From assembly GCA_029252405.1 (NCBI GenBank), contig JAQXBM010000044.1:1-59784 (forward strand): DNA of 59,784 bases. Direction: 5' to 3'. The notes beneath the pieces were generated by a model that saw only the letters and a list, made by a program, of their open reading frames with translations, ran no database searches and was not told where the DNA came from. Both the position numbers and the translations under genes were made by a program. Below, in pieces: positions 18,191 through 22,693 of this stretch (position 1 is its first letter; each line of letters begins with the position of its first letter). Origin of the DNA: Crocinitomicaceae bacterium. Lineage in GTDB: Bacteria > Bacteroidota > Bacteroidia > Flavobacteriales_D > Crocinitomicaceae.

Positions 18191-18708
18191 TGTCTCCGAT
18201 TTATTACGACGAAATTTCGACTCCTCTTGGAAATATGCAAGTTGGGATAACCGAAGCGGGCATCGTAATGTTTGAATTCCCCATCGAGGAAAGGATTTCT
18301 CAGCACAAGAAGAAGTTTTCGAAATTGTTTGAAGAGACTTCTACTCCACCCAACAACACTTTAGGGAATCTTGAGACACAGATTACAGAGTACTTTGAAG
18401 GCAATCGAACCTCATTCGATCTTACATTAAACTTTATTGGTACGGATTTTCAACACCAAGTTTGGAGTGCGTTATTAGAAATACCTTTTGGAAAAACAAT
18501 AAGCTATTTGGATTTGGCGAAGTCGCTGAACAATCCTGAAGATGTTCGTGCTGTTGCTCATGCCAACGGTCAAAACAGATTGCCAATCTTAGTTCCATGT
18601 CACAGGGTTCTGGCTTCAGATGGGAAACTTACGGGGTTTTCAGGTGGGATTACTCGGAAAGAAACACTTCTGTCTCTTGAGAGCGGTCAGGGTCGCCTTA
18701 GCTTTTAA
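18190..18708 (+). CDS. ogt: Methylated-DNA--protein-cysteine methyltransferase
   Basis: A 172-aa O6-alkylguanine-DNA alkyltransferase, the usual length for Ogt. It transfers the alkyl group from damaged guanine to its own cysteine in a suicidal repair reaction. The active-site motif is PCHRV with C137; the helix-turn-helix with the arginine finger lies in DVRAVAHANGQNR, followed by PILVPCHRV. The N-terminal domain (residues 1-80) is present. The start overlaps the DUF2461 stop by one base. Its 3' end overlaps the 3' end of the DUF3606-like gene on the other strand by 11 bases. Confidence 0.96.
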   Translation: MSPIYYDEISTPLGNMQVGITEAGIVMFEFPIEERISQHKKKFSKLFEETSTPPNNTLGNLETQITEYFEGNRTSFDLTLNFIGTDFQHQVWSALLEIPFGKTISYLDLAKSLNNPEDVRAVAHANGQNRLPILVPCHRVLASDGKLTGFSGGITRKETLLSLESGQGRLSF

Positions 18709-18886
18709 CCGTTTCGAACTTTTGAAGCAGACGATCTTTATTCATTTGCCAATATGCCTCGATTGCAGGGAGCGATGGGCCAATTTGCAGCATGCAGTAA
18801 CGAACGATGTCAATTGGGCAGTCAATAATTTCTGAGATTCGTTTGATCTCTTCGGAGTTTGATAGTAGATGTGGCGAATTATTCAC
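18698..18886 (-). CDS. Small DUF3606-like protein, GTG start
   Basis: A 62-aa protein if read from the GTG at 18886. The body EEIKRISEIIDCPIDIVRYCMLQIGPSLPAIEAYW has the helix-helix spacing and the 'L--av-k-G-s-eavr-yL' pattern of DUF3606 proteins, which are small and uncharacterised. The frame remains open to a TTG at 18919, but that TTG is part of a very good promoter -7 box, so a start downstream is needed and GTG 18886 is the only standard candidate before residue 43. The gene is easy to miss because it has no ATG and converges on ogt. Confidence 0.6.
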   Translation of the reverse strand: MNNSPHLLSNSEEIKRISEIIDCPIDIVRYCMLQIGPSLPAIEAYWQMNKDRLLQKFETVKS

Positions 18887-18916
18887 ACAATTGTTTTTAA
18901 GATTTTCGTAGCAATT

Positions 18917-18947
18917 CAAAGCTAAGGGAAATTAAAATGCCATCAAA
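18917..18947 (-). promoter_or_regulatory. Promoter of the DUF3606-like gene (TTTG - 19 bp - TAGCTTTG)
   Basis: On the minus strand TTTG (18947-18944) and TAGCTTTG (18924-18917) are exact matches with the ideal 19-bp spacer, one of the best promoters in the window. It has two TGCGGAA-like boxes directly upstream (see 18948-18981). Confidence 0.7.
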
Positions 18948-18981
18948 TACGGGAAAAACTACTTTTTAATGCGGAATTCCG
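18948..18981. promoter_or_regulatory. Candidate two-box operator upstream of the DUF3606-like promoter
   Basis: Box A (TACGGGAAAA, from 18948) starts right after the -33 TTTG. Box B (TGCGGAATTCCG, from 18970, containing the palindrome CGGAATTCCG) starts 22 bp further. The same arrangement occurs at the small-RNA promoter (21783 and 21805). The boxes also lie in the leader region of the signalling operon starting at 19143. Confidence 0.4.
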
Positions 18982-19142
18982 AATCAAAAAAACGGAGACC
19001 TCGAAAAATGATGTTACAAAAATGACACAAGCACTGATTTTACTAAAGCTTTAGAGGGTGTCCCAAATTTTCTCAATATTGAAGTTCGAGATAAGCCTAA
19101 GTTTTTACTACTTTCAAGACTTAATACTTAAATAAATACACT

Positions 19143-19451
19143 ATGGCATTTGACGGAACAGAAGGAGGCGCTATTACACTCTCAGAAGGCGCAGCTTTAA
19201 CAAAAGAACATCGATTAAGAAATCCAACAGCTCACAAAGGGCATTTCTTCGGGAAAGAAATTTTGAACCAAATCCTTGATCAAGAAGGTTGCATGGGAAT
19301 TCGATTCTATAATGGACAAGACGAAGACGGTAACAGACAACTCGTGATTGTAGGGGCAGATGAATTCGAAGATGATATGTTGGATTTAGTAGGAGATTTT
19401 TCCGCAGCATGTCCATCCAACTGCTCTACGCCCAACGCTTTAAACTCGTAG
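19143..19451 (+). CDS. Conserved 102-aa Bacteroidota protein ahead of a two-component system
   Basis: A 102-aa soluble protein. The pattern TEGGAITLSEGA, LTKEHRLRNP, AHFFGKEILNQILDQEGCMGIRFYNGQDEDGNRQLVIVGAD is one I recall from small Bacteroidota proteins of unknown function; KGHFFGKEIL and QEGCMGIR are the best conserved. Three cysteines (one in EGCMG, two near the end in CPSNC) might form a disulfide or bind metal. It is the first gene of a tight unit: the multi-TM protein begins 1 base after its stop, followed by the kinase and regulator. A sensory input or effector role in that unit is inferred from position. Confidence 0.75.
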   Translation: MAFDGTEGGAITLSEGAALTKEHRLRNPTAHKGHFFGKEILNQILDQEGCMGIRFYNGQDEDGNRQLVIVGADEFEDDMLDLVGDFSAACPSNCSTPNALNS

Positions 19452-19452
19452 A

Positions 19453-20076
19453 GTGCCTTTATACTTAATTTCGACATTCTCTATTTTAGTCCCTCTAATT
19501 AGTGCGGGAATTTTGTACAGACGCATGAATAAAACGCTTAAGAGATTAAGCGTTTTTATTCTTTTTAGCACTATCACGGAGACGCTCGCCATCATTTACT
19601 TCGAAAATGCTTGGAACAATATGGCCATATCTCATTTGTATGCCTTTTTCCAAGTACCATTGCTAGCCTGGATTTTCAGTTCTTTTATTACTGGCGTGAG
19701 AAAAAAACTCATATTCTTTTCCTGTATTGCATTTTTGTTATTTTCACTAGTGAACCTAGCCTTTTGGGAAGATCTGAATGAGTTCAACTCTAATCAGCGA
19801 TATTTCGCAGCGATTGTAATTCTCATGTACTGTTTCTTCTACTTTATTCAAGTTTTTGTCGAGGCAACAGTTGTGCGAATAGAAGCCGAGTATAACTTTT
19901 GGATGAGTGGATCAATTCTGCTTTACACAGCAGGAACTTTCTTCTTGTTTATATTGAAGAATGAGTTAAATGAATCGTCATCTTATGACTATTGGGACTT
20001 AAATTGCACTTTAAATATTATTCTTAATATAGGATTAACCGTATCGTTATGGATGGGAAGAAGGAAATCGAGTTAA
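19453..20076 (+). CDS. Multi-TM (about 7) putative sensor membrane protein, GTG start
   Basis: A 207-aa, very hydrophobic protein with segments near residues 2-22, 32-50, 58-78, 85-104, 117-137, 148-168 and 180-200, so six or seven membrane helices. The GTG at 19453 is needed to include the first helix; the first ATG would remove it. It has few charged loops and no enzyme motif. Its 3' end overlaps the histidine kinase gene by 28 bases, and it follows the 102-aa gene by one base. The kinase has only one membrane helix and no periplasmic domain, so this protein is a good candidate for its signal-sensing partner (inference). Confidence 0.75.
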   Translation: MPLYLISTFSILVPLISAGILYRRMNKTLKRLSVFILFSTITETLAIIYFENAWNNMAISHLYAFFQVPLLAWIFSSFITGVRKKLIFFSCIAFLLFSLVNLAFWEDLNEFNSNQRYFAAIVILMYCFFYFIQVFVEATVVRIEAEYNFWMSGSILLYTAGTFFLFILKNELNESSSYDYWDLNCTLNIILNIGLTVSLWMGRRKSS

Positions 20077-20834
20077 CACTTTTGCTGGGTACAGCGGTAA
20101 TGGTAACATTGGCGCTTTTCATTATCATCTTCGTGGTAATTTACCAACGTAGACTTTACTCCAAGCAGCGTGAAATGAGCGAACTCGAACTTGACGCGCA
20201 ACGCAATCTCATGGAAGCCGTTATTCTCGCCAAAGAAAAAGAGCAAAAACGAATGGCCCAGGAACTGCATGATGGGATTGGTTCGGCGCTTACCGCATTA
20301 AAAATGTCCATCATCCAAATGAACTTGGTTCCAGAGCACAAAAAGCAGATCGACACAAACATAAAAGCAATCAGCGTAGATGTACGTCGAATATCAAACG
20401 AACTGATGCCTTCCGTGCTTGAAGACATGGGATTACAGGCAGCTTTGGAACGCCTTGCACAACGCACGCGAAGTGCTACTCTTATTGATTGTAAATATTC
20501 GAGAAATAATGCACTGGATTCCTTGCATAATGATCAGGCTCAATTAGCTTTGTATCGTGTTGTTCAAGAACTGGTGAACAATATTATAAAATACGCGAAG
20601 GCGACAGAAATTTCGATTGCTGAGGAGATAATTGACGGAAATTACGTATTATCGATATCAGATAACGGAATGGGATTTGAACCTTCGGAAAGTGAACTAT
20701 CTAAACCTGGTTCGCTTGGATTGAAGAATATTAAGAGTCGTATTCAACAAGTAGGAGGAACAATTTCGTACCAGAAACTATCTCCGAAAGGGACGAACGT
20801 TAACATAGAAATTCAAAACTATGAAGAACATTAG
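20049..20834 (+). CDS. Sensor histidine kinase, NarX/DegS type (HisKA_3 + HATPase)
   Basis: A 261-aa kinase. One membrane helix lies at residues 8-32 with almost nothing outside. A coiled linker (35-65) leads to the HisKA_3 phosphoacceptor motif ELHDGIGSAL with H74. The ATP-binding domain has the N box (QELVNNIIKYAKA), G1 (DNGMGF) and G2 (GSLGLKNIKSR). It autophosphorylates and passes phosphate to the regulator encoded immediately downstream, overlapping by 14 bases. The lack of an extracellular sensor domain suggests it listens through the multi-TM partner encoded upstream. Confidence 0.94.
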   Translation: MDGKKEIELTLLLGTAVMVTLALFIIIFVVIYQRRLYSKQREMSELELDAQRNLMEAVILAKEKEQKRMAQELHDGIGSALTALKMSIIQMNLVPEHKKQIDTNIKAISVDVRRISNELMPSVLEDMGLQAALERLAQRTRSATLIDCKYSRNNALDSLHNDQAQLALYRVVQELVNNIIKYAKATEISIAEEIIDGNYVLSISDNGMGFEPSESELSKPGSLGLKNIKSRIQQVGGTISYQKLSPKGTNVNIEIQNYEEH

Positions 20835-21477
20835 TGTAGGAATAGCAGAGGATCAAGAAATATTTAGATCCGCACTCGGGCATTTACTGAACAGTTTCAC
20901 TGGAGTGTCGGTAGTGGCTCAGGCCGAAAACGGCAAATTGCTTGTCGAACACGTCGATATTGACAATGTTGATATTGCTATTATCGATTACAAAATGCCA
21001 ATCATGGGGGGAATCGAGACGAGTAAACTACTACGTACGAAGCACCCGAACATGAAAATTATCATTCTATCCATGTTTGATGATGAAAGTTTCGTTGAAA
21101 AAGCGATCGAAAATGGGGCAAATGCCTACTTGTCGAAAGACGATGATTTAGAAGAATTAGAGATGGCAATGCACAGTGTCTTGGATAACGAATACTACTT
21201 CAACGACCGAATCTCTAAGATCTTCATTCGATCGATGATCAGCAAAGGGAAAATTGCTCCAACATTCATCAACAATGAATTGAGCTTTACACAAATGGAG
21301 GTTTCTATTTTGGATCTCATGTCTAAAGAGTTGACAACTCAGGAAATTGCCGATAAATTGTACCGAAGTACACGTACAATAGATAAACACAGAAGTGAAA
21401 TGATGAAAAAGACTGGAACGAAGAATTCCATTGGACTCATCATGTACGGAATCAAAAAAGGCTTAATCAAAGCTTAG
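20821..21477 (+). CDS. NarL/FixJ-family response regulator
   Basis: A 218-aa regulator. The receiver domain (residues 3-120) has acidic residues E10/D11, phosphoacceptor D56 in IIDYKMP and K106 in YLSKDD. The LuxR-type helix-turn-helix domain (150-215) reads ELSFTQMEVSILDLMSKELTTQEIADKLYRSTRTIDKHRSEMMKKT. It is the partner of the upstream kinase (14-base overlap). A terminator follows. Candidate binding sites are the TGCGGAA-type boxes found on both sides of this operon at 18948-18981 and 21783-21816, by inference from location and arrangement. Confidence 0.95.
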   Translation: MKNISVGIAEDQEIFRSALGHLLNSFTGVSVVAQAENGKLLVEHVDIDNVDIAIIDYKMPIMGGIETSKLLRTKHPNMKIIILSMFDDESFVEKAIENGANAYLSKDDDLEELEMAMHSVLDNEYYFNDRISKIFIRSMISKGKIAPTFINNELSFTQMEVSILDLMSKELTTQEIADKLYRSTRTIDKHRSEMMKKTGTKNSIGLIMYGIKKGLIKA

Positions 21478-21502
21478 TACAAACTCTACATAAAATATTG
21501 AT

Positions 21503-21536
21503 AATCGTCCCTACTACTTTTGGGGCGATTTTTTTT
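21503..21536 (+). terminator. Terminator of the two-component operon
   Basis: AATCGTCCC (21503-21511) pairs with GGGGCGATT (21522-21530), followed by further T residues. It lies 26 bases after the response regulator stop. Confidence 0.85.
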
Positions 21537-21553
21537 GTGGCAAAAAGTCATTG

Positions 21554-21589
21554 AAAAAAAAAAGTCCAGTTTCGAATACGAAACTGGAC
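21554..21589 (-). terminator. Terminator of the small RNA
   Basis: GTCCAGTTTCG (21564-21574) and CGAAACTGGAC (21579-21589) form a perfect 11-bp stem with a 4-base loop. On the minus strand it is followed by ten consecutive T, so it acts on minus-strand transcripts, although no minus-strand protein gene lies upstream. Confidence 0.85.
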
Positions 21590-21746
21590 CCCTACTACTA
21601 GAAATTAGATTTGTCGTCAACACAGCCTATGAATCACTACGAAACGATTGTTAGATTCATCAATGAATGAATAAACTTGAAGACTCCCGGCTTGCTTGCT
21701 ATCCTCTTAACTCACTGACTTAACTCTCTGTGTTGTCACCCTCTAA
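21554..21746 (-). ncRNA. Candidate structured small RNA of about 193 nt, own promoter and terminator
   Basis: No protein gene fits here, yet the minus strand has a promoter (ATTG, 20 bp, TAGATTTG) about 6 bases before 21746 and a perfect intrinsic terminator at 21554-21589 ending in ten T. Between them the RNA can fold: outer TTAGA/TCTAA, then CAACACAG (21735-21728) with CTGTGTTG (21625-21618), closing a region of about 100 nt that contains an upper hairpin (ATTCAT with ATGAAT, extended by GTT/AAC). A long closing stem, a large open middle and a terminal stem-loop at this length resemble 6S RNA (a 6S-Flavo class is described), but I could not confirm the match. A regulatory small RNA controlled by the neighbouring two-component system is the alternative. 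Confidence 0.5.
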
Positions 21747-21751
21747 TACTT

Positions 21752-21783
21752 CAAATCTAACTATCCAATTCCGATTAATCAAT
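21752..21783 (-). promoter_or_regulatory. Promoter of the small RNA (ATTG - 20 bp - TAGATTTG)
   Basis: On the minus strand ATTG (21783-21780) and the exact -7 TAGATTTG (21759-21752) are 20 bp apart. Expected transcription start is about 21746. Confidence 0.5.
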
Positions 21784-21816
21784 GCGGAAAACTGTATTTG
21801 TGAGTGCGGAAAATAC
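21783..21816. promoter_or_regulatory. Candidate two-box operator upstream of the small RNA
   Basis: TGCGGAAAA at 21783-21791 and TGCGGAAAATAC at 21805-21816 are direct repeats 22 bp apart, centred about 41 and 63 bp upstream of the predicted start, where activators commonly bind. The spacing and place relative to -33 match the pair at 18948-18981. Confidence 0.4.
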
Positions 21817-21888
21817 TACTTATTAAGTTTTAAGTCCGAACAAACACCCCTAAAAGCCCCAACTATACGGTTTTAGTTCGATTTAAGG

Positions 21889-21922
21889 AAAAATGCGGAA
21901 AATACGCCTAATCGCATTTTTT
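21889..21922. other. Inverted repeat holding a third TGCGGAAAATAC box
   Basis: AAAAATGCG (21889-21897) and CGCATTTTT (21913-21921) form a perfect 9-bp inverted repeat. The left arm overlaps another TGCGGAAAATAC (21894-21905). It could be a terminator-like hairpin (T run on both strands) or an operator for the TetR regulator encoded about 75 bases downstream. The remaining DNA between here and 21998 is AT-rich without further clear signals. Confidence 0.4.
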
Positions 21923-21997
21923 AATAAAAATTTGATGCCAACACTACACGTATCAATAGTATTACTATTATATTAGCACTCATTAATTATAAAAAGG

Positions 21998-22693
21998 TTG
22001 AAACAACTTCTGTCAAATATTGAAATCTGCGTTAACTCGAGCATCTATTTAAAAGATCCTGCATCGAGCGAACTCGGCAAGAAAATTATTCAAGGTAGCA
22101 TTGAATTGATCTACGATATTGGATTTGAATCTTTTACCTTCCGCAAATTAGCTAAGGCGATATCTTCTACAGAGGCTTCTGTTTACAGATACTTCGAAAG
22201 CAAACACAAGTTGCTTGTTTACTTGACATCTTGGTACTGGTCTTGGTTAGAATACAGACTGGTTTTCGCCATTGCCAACGTTGAAAATCCTGTTATTCGA
22301 TTGGAAAGAGCAATCCTCATTGTTACAAAGCAAGTTGAGGAGGATGGAAATTTCGCGCACATTAACGAAATCAAGCTTCATCAAATCGTTATTGCTGAAT
22401 CATCGAAAGCATACTTGACGAAAGAAGTTGATGAAGACAATAAAATTGGTTCCTTCGCAGGCTACAAGCAGTTAGTTGAGCGAATCAGCCAGATAATTAC
22501 TGAAATTAAACCCAACTATAAGTATCCTCACATGCTCGTTTCGACAATGATCGAAGGAATGCATCACCAACGCTATTTCGCAGAGCATTTGCCCCGACTG
22601 ACCGACTCAGTGGCTGGTGAAGATGCCATCACAAATTTTTACAAGCACATGGTACTGAACACGCTTGAAATTAAACCTTCAGGAAAGTACTAA
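21998..22693 (+). CDS. TetR-family transcriptional regulator, TTG start
   Basis: A 231-aa regulator. The N-terminal DNA-binding domain reads KKIIQGSIELIYDIGFESFTFRKLAKAISSTEASVYRYFESKHKLLVYL, a clear TetR helix-turn-helix. The remaining 160 residues are helical and form the ligand/dimer domain, with no recognisable ligand signature. No ATG occurs before residue 190, so a TTG at 21998 preceded by AAAAAGG is the best start. The SulP transporter gene follows after 19 bases, so the regulator probably controls its own operon with that transporter. Confidence 0.85.
   Translation: MKQLLSNIEICVNSSIYLKDPASSELGKKIIQGSIELIYDIGFESFTFRKLAKAISSTEASVYRYFESKHKLLVYLTSWYWSWLEYRLVFAIANVENPVIRLERAILIVTKQVEEDGNFAHINEIKLHQIVIAESSKAYLTKEVDEDNKIGSFAGYKQLVERISQIITEIKPNYKYPHMLVSTMIEGMHHQRYFAEHLPRLTDSVAGEDAITNFYKHMVLNTLEIKPSGKY

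Follow-up and report, generated by a model that had tools for sequence, protein, structure and literature searches.

A putative clade-specific small RNA as the probable output of a neighbouring two-component system in a Crocinitomicaceae bacterium

The stretch of DNA analysed in this study (the window, 59,784 nucleotides of a Crocinitomicaceae genome) contains a plus-strand operon for a two-component system. A divergent small protein gene lies at one end of the operon, and an apparent small RNA (sRNA) gene, convergent with the regulator gene, lies at the other (Table 1). The genome from which the window was taken is labelled G000, and the other G-codes, as well as the L-codes, denote the genomes and loci compared. 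The DNA search was performed in 60 genomes (the own genome included), and the genus and order sets consisted of 34 and 399 genomes, respectively.

Table 1. Features of the sRNA locus and the adjoining operon (positions in the window).
Feature	Position	Strand	Basis and remarks
Divergent small protein gene, ~62 aa, GTG start	18698..18886	minus	Homologs in L033, L034, L035
Promoter of the small protein gene, with TAGCTTTG	18917..18976	minus	Twin site 18944-18976, second copy TCCCG
102-aa protein, operon head	19143..19451	plus	Conserved in G008, G007, G017; no Pfam family
Probable multi-pass membrane protein, candidate sensor	19453..20076	plus	Membrane nature by eye; no Pfam family
Histidine kinase (HisKA_3, HATPase_c)	20049..20834	plus	Pfam; one likely membrane segment by eye
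Response regulator, receiver and LuxR/GerE HTH; candidate activator	20821..21477	plus	PF00072, PF00196
Small RNA gene, ~190 nt	21554..21747	minus	Expected +1 at 21747 to end of T run; promoter, terminator, homologs
Intrinsic terminator, 11-bp stem and ten T	21554..21589	minus	Stem 21564-21589, T run 21554-21563
Conserved block 2, CAAAUCUAAUUUCUAGUAGUAG	21592..21613	minus	Single change in G017; G006 retains UUUCUAGUAGUAG
Conserved block 1, AGCCGGGAGUCU	21681..21692	minus	Identical in window, G008, G007, G017 and G013 remnant
-7 element TAGATTTG (TAnnTTTG)	21752..21759	minus	TAnnTTTG equally placed in G008, G007, G017; G006 has TACCTTTA
-33 element ATTG	21780..21783	minus	ATTG also in G007, G017, G006; lost in G008
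Twin upstream site, TTCCG 21807-21811 and 21785-21789	21785..21811	minus	Copies 22 bp apart; probable activator site

The earlier note on this DNA had proposed a minus-strand promoter with a 20-bp spacing, an 11-bp terminator stem followed by ten T, and no fitting reading frame, and all of this was borne out by the letters. The ATTG and TAGATTTG elements lie exactly 20 bp apart on the minus strand, with the expected start at ~21747, and the terminator stem GTCCAGTTTCG/CGAAACTGGAC starts 158 nt past it. No ORF of at least 60 aa in the ORF list of the window overlaps positions 21554–21746. With its own promoter and terminator and no such ORF, the interval thus reads as an sRNA gene. Promoter elements of these kinds are described, in the cited parts of the respective papers, for a flavobacterium (TAnnTTTG at -12 to -5, PMC9723704) and for Bacteroides (-7/-33, PMC7366714). 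Among the related copies, the terminator stem is intact in G007, contains a G-U pair in G008 and internal mismatches in G017, and G006 has another stem.

In G000, G007, G017 and G006, the immediate neighbour of the regulator gene on its downstream side is the sRNA gene. The operon order together with the adjoining sRNA is as in the window in G007 and G017, and G008 has an extra gene (MscS-like by eye) between the regulator and the sRNA. The kinase, the regulator and the sRNA are present in G006, and the two genes preceding the kinase and the small protein gene were not seen there. A regulator at least 78% identical to that of the window was found in six of the 34 genus genomes (the own genome included), five of which have the sRNA; in the sixth, G032, the contig stops right after the regulator gene. 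Genomes G002 and G019, with more distant regulators (66 and 49% identity), have no room for the sRNA directly after the regulator gene. The homologs of the small protein share 66, 44 and 32% identity with that of the window, and the size is 62–69 aa; DUF3606 was not claimed as its family, as Pfam gave an E-value of 0.12 in just one of the four members. It was also observed that the genes of the 102-aa and membrane proteins precede the kinase gene in G008, G007 and G017 too; both proteins are candidate sensor parts.

The sRNA is present as a single copy in its own genome. In the genus, four clear copies (that of the window included), one shorter copy found via synteny (G006) and one promoterless remnant (G013) were identified. 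The five best DNA matches in the 60 genomes (E<=5e-8) were the own sequence, G008 (91% identity), G013 (84%) and the 3' parts of the copies in G007 and G017. The matches in other genomes began at an E-value of 0.005 and were short, 54 of the 60 genomes having some match at E<=1. The G006 copy is shorter and divergent, and was located by reading the DNA downstream of the orthologous regulator gene. A covariance model (R1) was constructed from the copies of the window, G008, G007 and G017. In the 399 order genomes, convincing R1 matches were confined to G000, G007, G008, G017 and the G013 remnant, and G002 had no match. It should be noted that R1 overlooked the G006 copy in this search, and in a separate run scored just its 3' end; distant copies may therefore be missed, and the search is not exhaustive. 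The R1 matches in 19 further genomes (E-values from 1.7e-5 to 0.08) were rejected, as the conserved blocks are absent from them: CCGGGAGTC, AATCTAATTT, TTTCTAGTAG and CTAGTAGTAG are missing from all 19, five of which carry a lone GTTTTCCG or GATTTCCG outside the matched part. When the best 10 of the 28 R1 matches were aligned, they agreed mainly at the terminator, and L125 agreed more along its length. The expectation that the interval would be conserved in related genomes was confirmed, since the homologs retain the promoter, the blocks and the terminator. Taken from its sequence, the locus looks like a genuine sRNA gene kept in a few related bacteria.

The two blocks of the sRNA are 12 and 22 nt long. 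Four elements are invariant across the four clear copies: TTAGA shortly after the start, AGCCGGGAGTCT, CAAATCTAATTTCTAGTAG and the core of the terminator. The G006 copy retains TTTCTAGTAGTAG. The RNA had been described in the earlier note as structured and able to close with the helices TTAGA/TCTAA and CAACACAG/CTGTGTTG. The arms of both helices were indeed found in the window sequence, but the stability beyond that of shuffled sequences was lost without the terminator. The z-score of the full-length RNA was -2.56 owing to the terminator. After its removal, the z-scores (100 mononucleotide shuffles) were +0.57 in the window, -0.56 in G008, +0.92 in G007 and +0.50 in G017; only the short G006 copy surpassed its shuffles (z -2.92, with one of the 100 shuffles as low). 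The inner helix is not conserved in all copies either. All eight pairs of this helix form in the window and in G008, and pairing falls to three of the eight in G007 and G017, so that the helix is kept in two of the four copies. The outer UUAGA/UCUAA pairing never varies and is therefore uninformative as proof of pairing. As the four main copies are no stabler than shuffles and the inner helix is not kept, it is the sequence blocks, rather than a conserved fold, by which the sRNA is recognised.

The note had offered two identities for the transcript, 6S RNA or a new regulatory RNA, of which the latter was supported. As a 6S RNA it would form a long rod with a central bulge and bind RNA polymerase. 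This reading is favoured by a single 190-nt transcript with pairable ends, and by the 5-bp and 8-bp closing helices in the window and G008. However, it fails on the Rfam comparison, on the inner helix and on the distribution. No 6S family was among the nine Rfam matches obtained at E<=10 for positions 21450–22000, no Rfam family reached its gathering score anywhere in the window, and the five homolog loci gave two matches at E<=1, neither of them 6S. The 6S-Flavo model had no match in the own genome at E<=10 either, and the proposed check against the Rfam 6S and 6S-Flavo models thus came out negative. The weak match to the L20 leader (RF00558; 24.8 bits against a cut-off of 58.7, E-value 0.012) was rejected, as it consists mostly of the terminator and no ribosomal protein operon lies downstream; the other weak Rfam matches at the sRNA were terminator-like or chance. 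The long closing stem around a central bulge that characterises 6S RNA is not conserved among the sRNA copies. They are found in few genomes, and 6S RNA is expected as one housekeeping copy in nearly every relative. Among the known families, 6S-Flavo (RF01685) and Bacteroidales-1 (RF01693), the latter of which Rfam suggests to be a 6S RNA, are of similar size to the sRNA; their kind of closing stem occurs in the window and G008 copies only, the sRNA matches neither, and a different locus of the own genome fits the 6S pattern.

This other RNA shows the 6S outline. Sub-threshold matches to 6S-Flavo were found at eight places in seven of the 34 genus genomes, the best scoring 33.6 bits against a cut-off of 85. 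Five of the eight places align with one another, and one is in G017, on the same contig as the sRNA of that genome but elsewhere. A model of the 6S-like RNA (R2), built from these five loci, matched 28 of the 34 genus genomes at E<=1.6e-26, the own copy being G000:C81:7352-7562 (equal to L168:2001-2211). A 29th genome, G019, had two weak matches, and five genomes had none at E<=0.01. When 28 copies were aligned, among them those five from which the model was built, pairing cells made up 96.8%, and both sides had changed in 26 of the 45 pairs, compared with 13.6 in shuffles and 4–9 in slid versions; it should be noted that the alignment was fitted to the R2 model, which favours these figures. 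No Rfam family reached its cut-off in a scan of 20 of the 6S-like loci. One locus gave a weak Bacteroidales-1 match (32 bits, cut-off 60) at E<=0.1, and another overlaps a sub-threshold match to the rimP leader (36.8 bits, cut-off 47). Judging from the outline and the strong covariation, this separate RNA would act as 6S, and the finding of a divergent 6S-like RNA below the 6S-Flavo cut-off fills an annotation gap in the genus. In the window, R2 found nothing convincing (best E-value 0.4, away from the sRNA position). Since a separate 6S-like RNA exists elsewhere and R2 is unconvincing here, the sRNA is very unlikely to be 6S RNA, a reading that its structure and distribution refute.

The promoter of the sRNA shares its architecture with a second promoter beside the operon. 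The twin TTCCG site is placed upstream of the -33 element of the sRNA, and its spacing is identical in G007, G017, G008 and G006 (first copy CTCCG in the latter). The small protein gene has the same arrangement in the window, G007 and G017, and a distance of 23 bp in G008 (by count). For the examination of its distribution, the pattern TTCCG-N17-TTCCG-NN-TTG-N20-TAnnTTTG was searched in the 34 genus genomes. Exactly five matches without mismatches were found, at the sRNA in G000, G007 and G017 and at the small protein gene in G007 and G017, and all five flank the kinase/LuxR-type regulator operon. At up to two mismatches, there were 15 matches in ten genomes. Eight flank the operon (the five exact ones, the small protein gene in G000 and G032, and the sRNA in G006) and seven lie elsewhere; a control with the backwards pattern gave five matches, so that the seven are about at the control level. 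The -33 element of G008 is degenerate, and its sRNA promoter fits just at three mismatches, a level at which a run over eight genomes gave more scattered matches. When the twin-site pattern was loosened, 29 matches turned up in 20 of the 34 genomes; in 16 of these 29, TAnnTTTG was never found at the right distance, the nearest (G006:C140) having TAATTTTC. As two promoters at the two ends of the operon have this rare site in common, the regulator encoded between them is the candidate to bind it, and the sRNA is probably one of the products that the adjoining two-component system controls.

The explanation that we prefer, with a probability of roughly two in three, is that of an independent, clade-specific, trans-acting sRNA, produced as the output of the neighbouring two-component system via the twin TTCCG sites. 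It builds on the gene anatomy, the conservation, the common promoter architecture and the presence of exact pattern copies only beside the operon in the 34 genus genomes, all of which are observed. The activating role of the regulator, the production of the sRNA and its mode of action are what we infer from them. The membrane protein and the kinase would sense a signal, and the phosphorylated LuxR-type regulator would bind the pair of TTCCG sites (spacing 22 bp) that directly precedes the -33 element. The bound regulator would then help the sigma-A RNA polymerase to start the ~190-nt RNA, as well as the divergent mRNA of the small protein. The sRNA itself may act in trans, and the likeliest mechanism would be that its two conserved blocks form short duplexes with mRNAs.

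The complements of the blocks bear on the mode of action. The complement of the block 1 core, GACTCCCGG, has seven sites in four genomes, of which four are the sRNA locus itself, one is in G008 and two are in G017; no perfect 9-base complement exists elsewhere in G000 or G007. A 13-base piece of block 2 is matched at one further place in G000 and at no other place in G007. The occurrences of TTTCTAGTAGNAG outside the sRNA (eight of 13 matches, one in G000) lack the sRNA anatomy and were set aside. Pairing through a long perfect seed is therefore improbable, which leaves a short seed or a partner protein. No consistent duplex site was predicted in five local mRNAs of four genomes, the z-scores of the duplex with the regulator mRNA being -2.3 in the window, -3.2 in G008, -1.2 in G007 and +1.4 in G017.

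With the same gene and the same control, the sRNA might be a decoy for an RNA-binding protein, like RsmY/RsmZ, instead of pairing with mRNAs. The length of the blocks, the lack of a perfect complement of the block 1 core in G000 and G007, and the control by a LuxR-type regulator, which recalls GacA/RsmY, would suit a decoy, but a repeated binding motif is not evident by eye. CsrA/RsmA proteins are rare in Bacteroidota. We regard the decoy as an unlikely variant, though one to be reckoned with. It is decidedly less probable that the conserved 22-nt block acts as DNA, its plus-strand end TTAGATTTG (a TAnnTTTG box) serving as a promoter from which an antisense transcript, or one of the DNA downstream, would start. 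This box is unchanged in the window, G008, G007 and G017, and is altered in the decayed G013 copy; however, G006 retains UUUCUAGUAGUAG without the box, inspection by eye revealed no conserved -33 element at a suitable spacing, and the downstream genes vary among genomes. Little chance is given to a short mRNA encoding a tiny peptide. A 10-codon ATG frame follows right after GGGAG in G007 and G017, but its place is not shared by the window and G008, whose 7-codon frame sits farther on, and no frame was seen in G006 (all by eye).

RcsB and GacA both belong to the LuxR/NarL type, and the gene of RprA is not adjacent to its regulator gene. RprA of Escherichia coli is activated by RcsB (PMC3465796). 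The present sRNA would resemble it in being driven from its promoter by a response regulator that carries a LuxR-type HTH; RprA differs in having known targets. RsmY and RsmZ are activated by GacA at TGTAAG-N6-CTTACA (PMC4950607, cited part). They have in common with the circuit predicted here a response regulator, dedicated upstream sites and a small-RNA output, but their site is an 18-bp inverted repeat, whereas the site found here consists of two TTCCG direct repeats 22 bp apart. Rfp18 of Flavobacterium psychrophilum, from the same order, is likewise a stand-alone sRNA with its own transcription unit (PMC9723704); set beside the present sRNA by description only, it has no two-component link in the cited part of that description, unlike the link proposed here. 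No published description of the present RNA was found in the literature searched on sRNAs of Crocinitomicaceae, flavobacteria and Bacteroidetes. On the best reading, the sRNA is clade-specific and not filed in Rfam, and its kind, a regulator-driven sRNA, is already known elsewhere.

The distribution of the promoter pattern allows a further suggestion, which we make tentatively and hold to be possible at most: the direct genome-wide targets of the regulator may be just the two promoters at the ends of its own operon, those of the small protein and the sRNA. If so, the membrane sensor, the kinase and the regulator would make up a closed signalling island in Flavobacteriales, and nearly all the output of the system would pass through these two products, a GacA/RsmY-like logic in Bacteroidota. 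To our knowledge, few activators of small RNAs have been established in Bacteroidota. The sequence of the present locus points to a candidate activator, to the DNA site for it and to a small protein regulated along with the sRNA, so that a complete circuit can be tested.

The remnant in G013 (L225, G013:C88) differs from the other copies in what surrounds it. Its alignment leaps from position 18252 of the window to 21385 and from 21727 to 21891. The first gap (18253–21384) removes the small protein gene, the sensor genes, the kinase gene and the regulator gene bar its end, and the second (21728–21890) removes the sRNA promoter, the twin site and the first ~20 nt of the sRNA. No regulator match was found in G013 at E<=1e-20. 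What is left is a remnant of the regulator gene and the sRNA body, 84% identical over the matched part; on this one draft contig, the pattern fits an sRNA that lost its use along with its regulator.

A minor observation concerns the plus-strand terminator after the regulator gene in the window (21506–21535). It holds CCCTACTACT, which is complementary to AGUAGUAGGG of the sRNA (21592–21604); inspection by eye shows no such terminator in G007, G017 and G006, so the complementarity may be due to chance.
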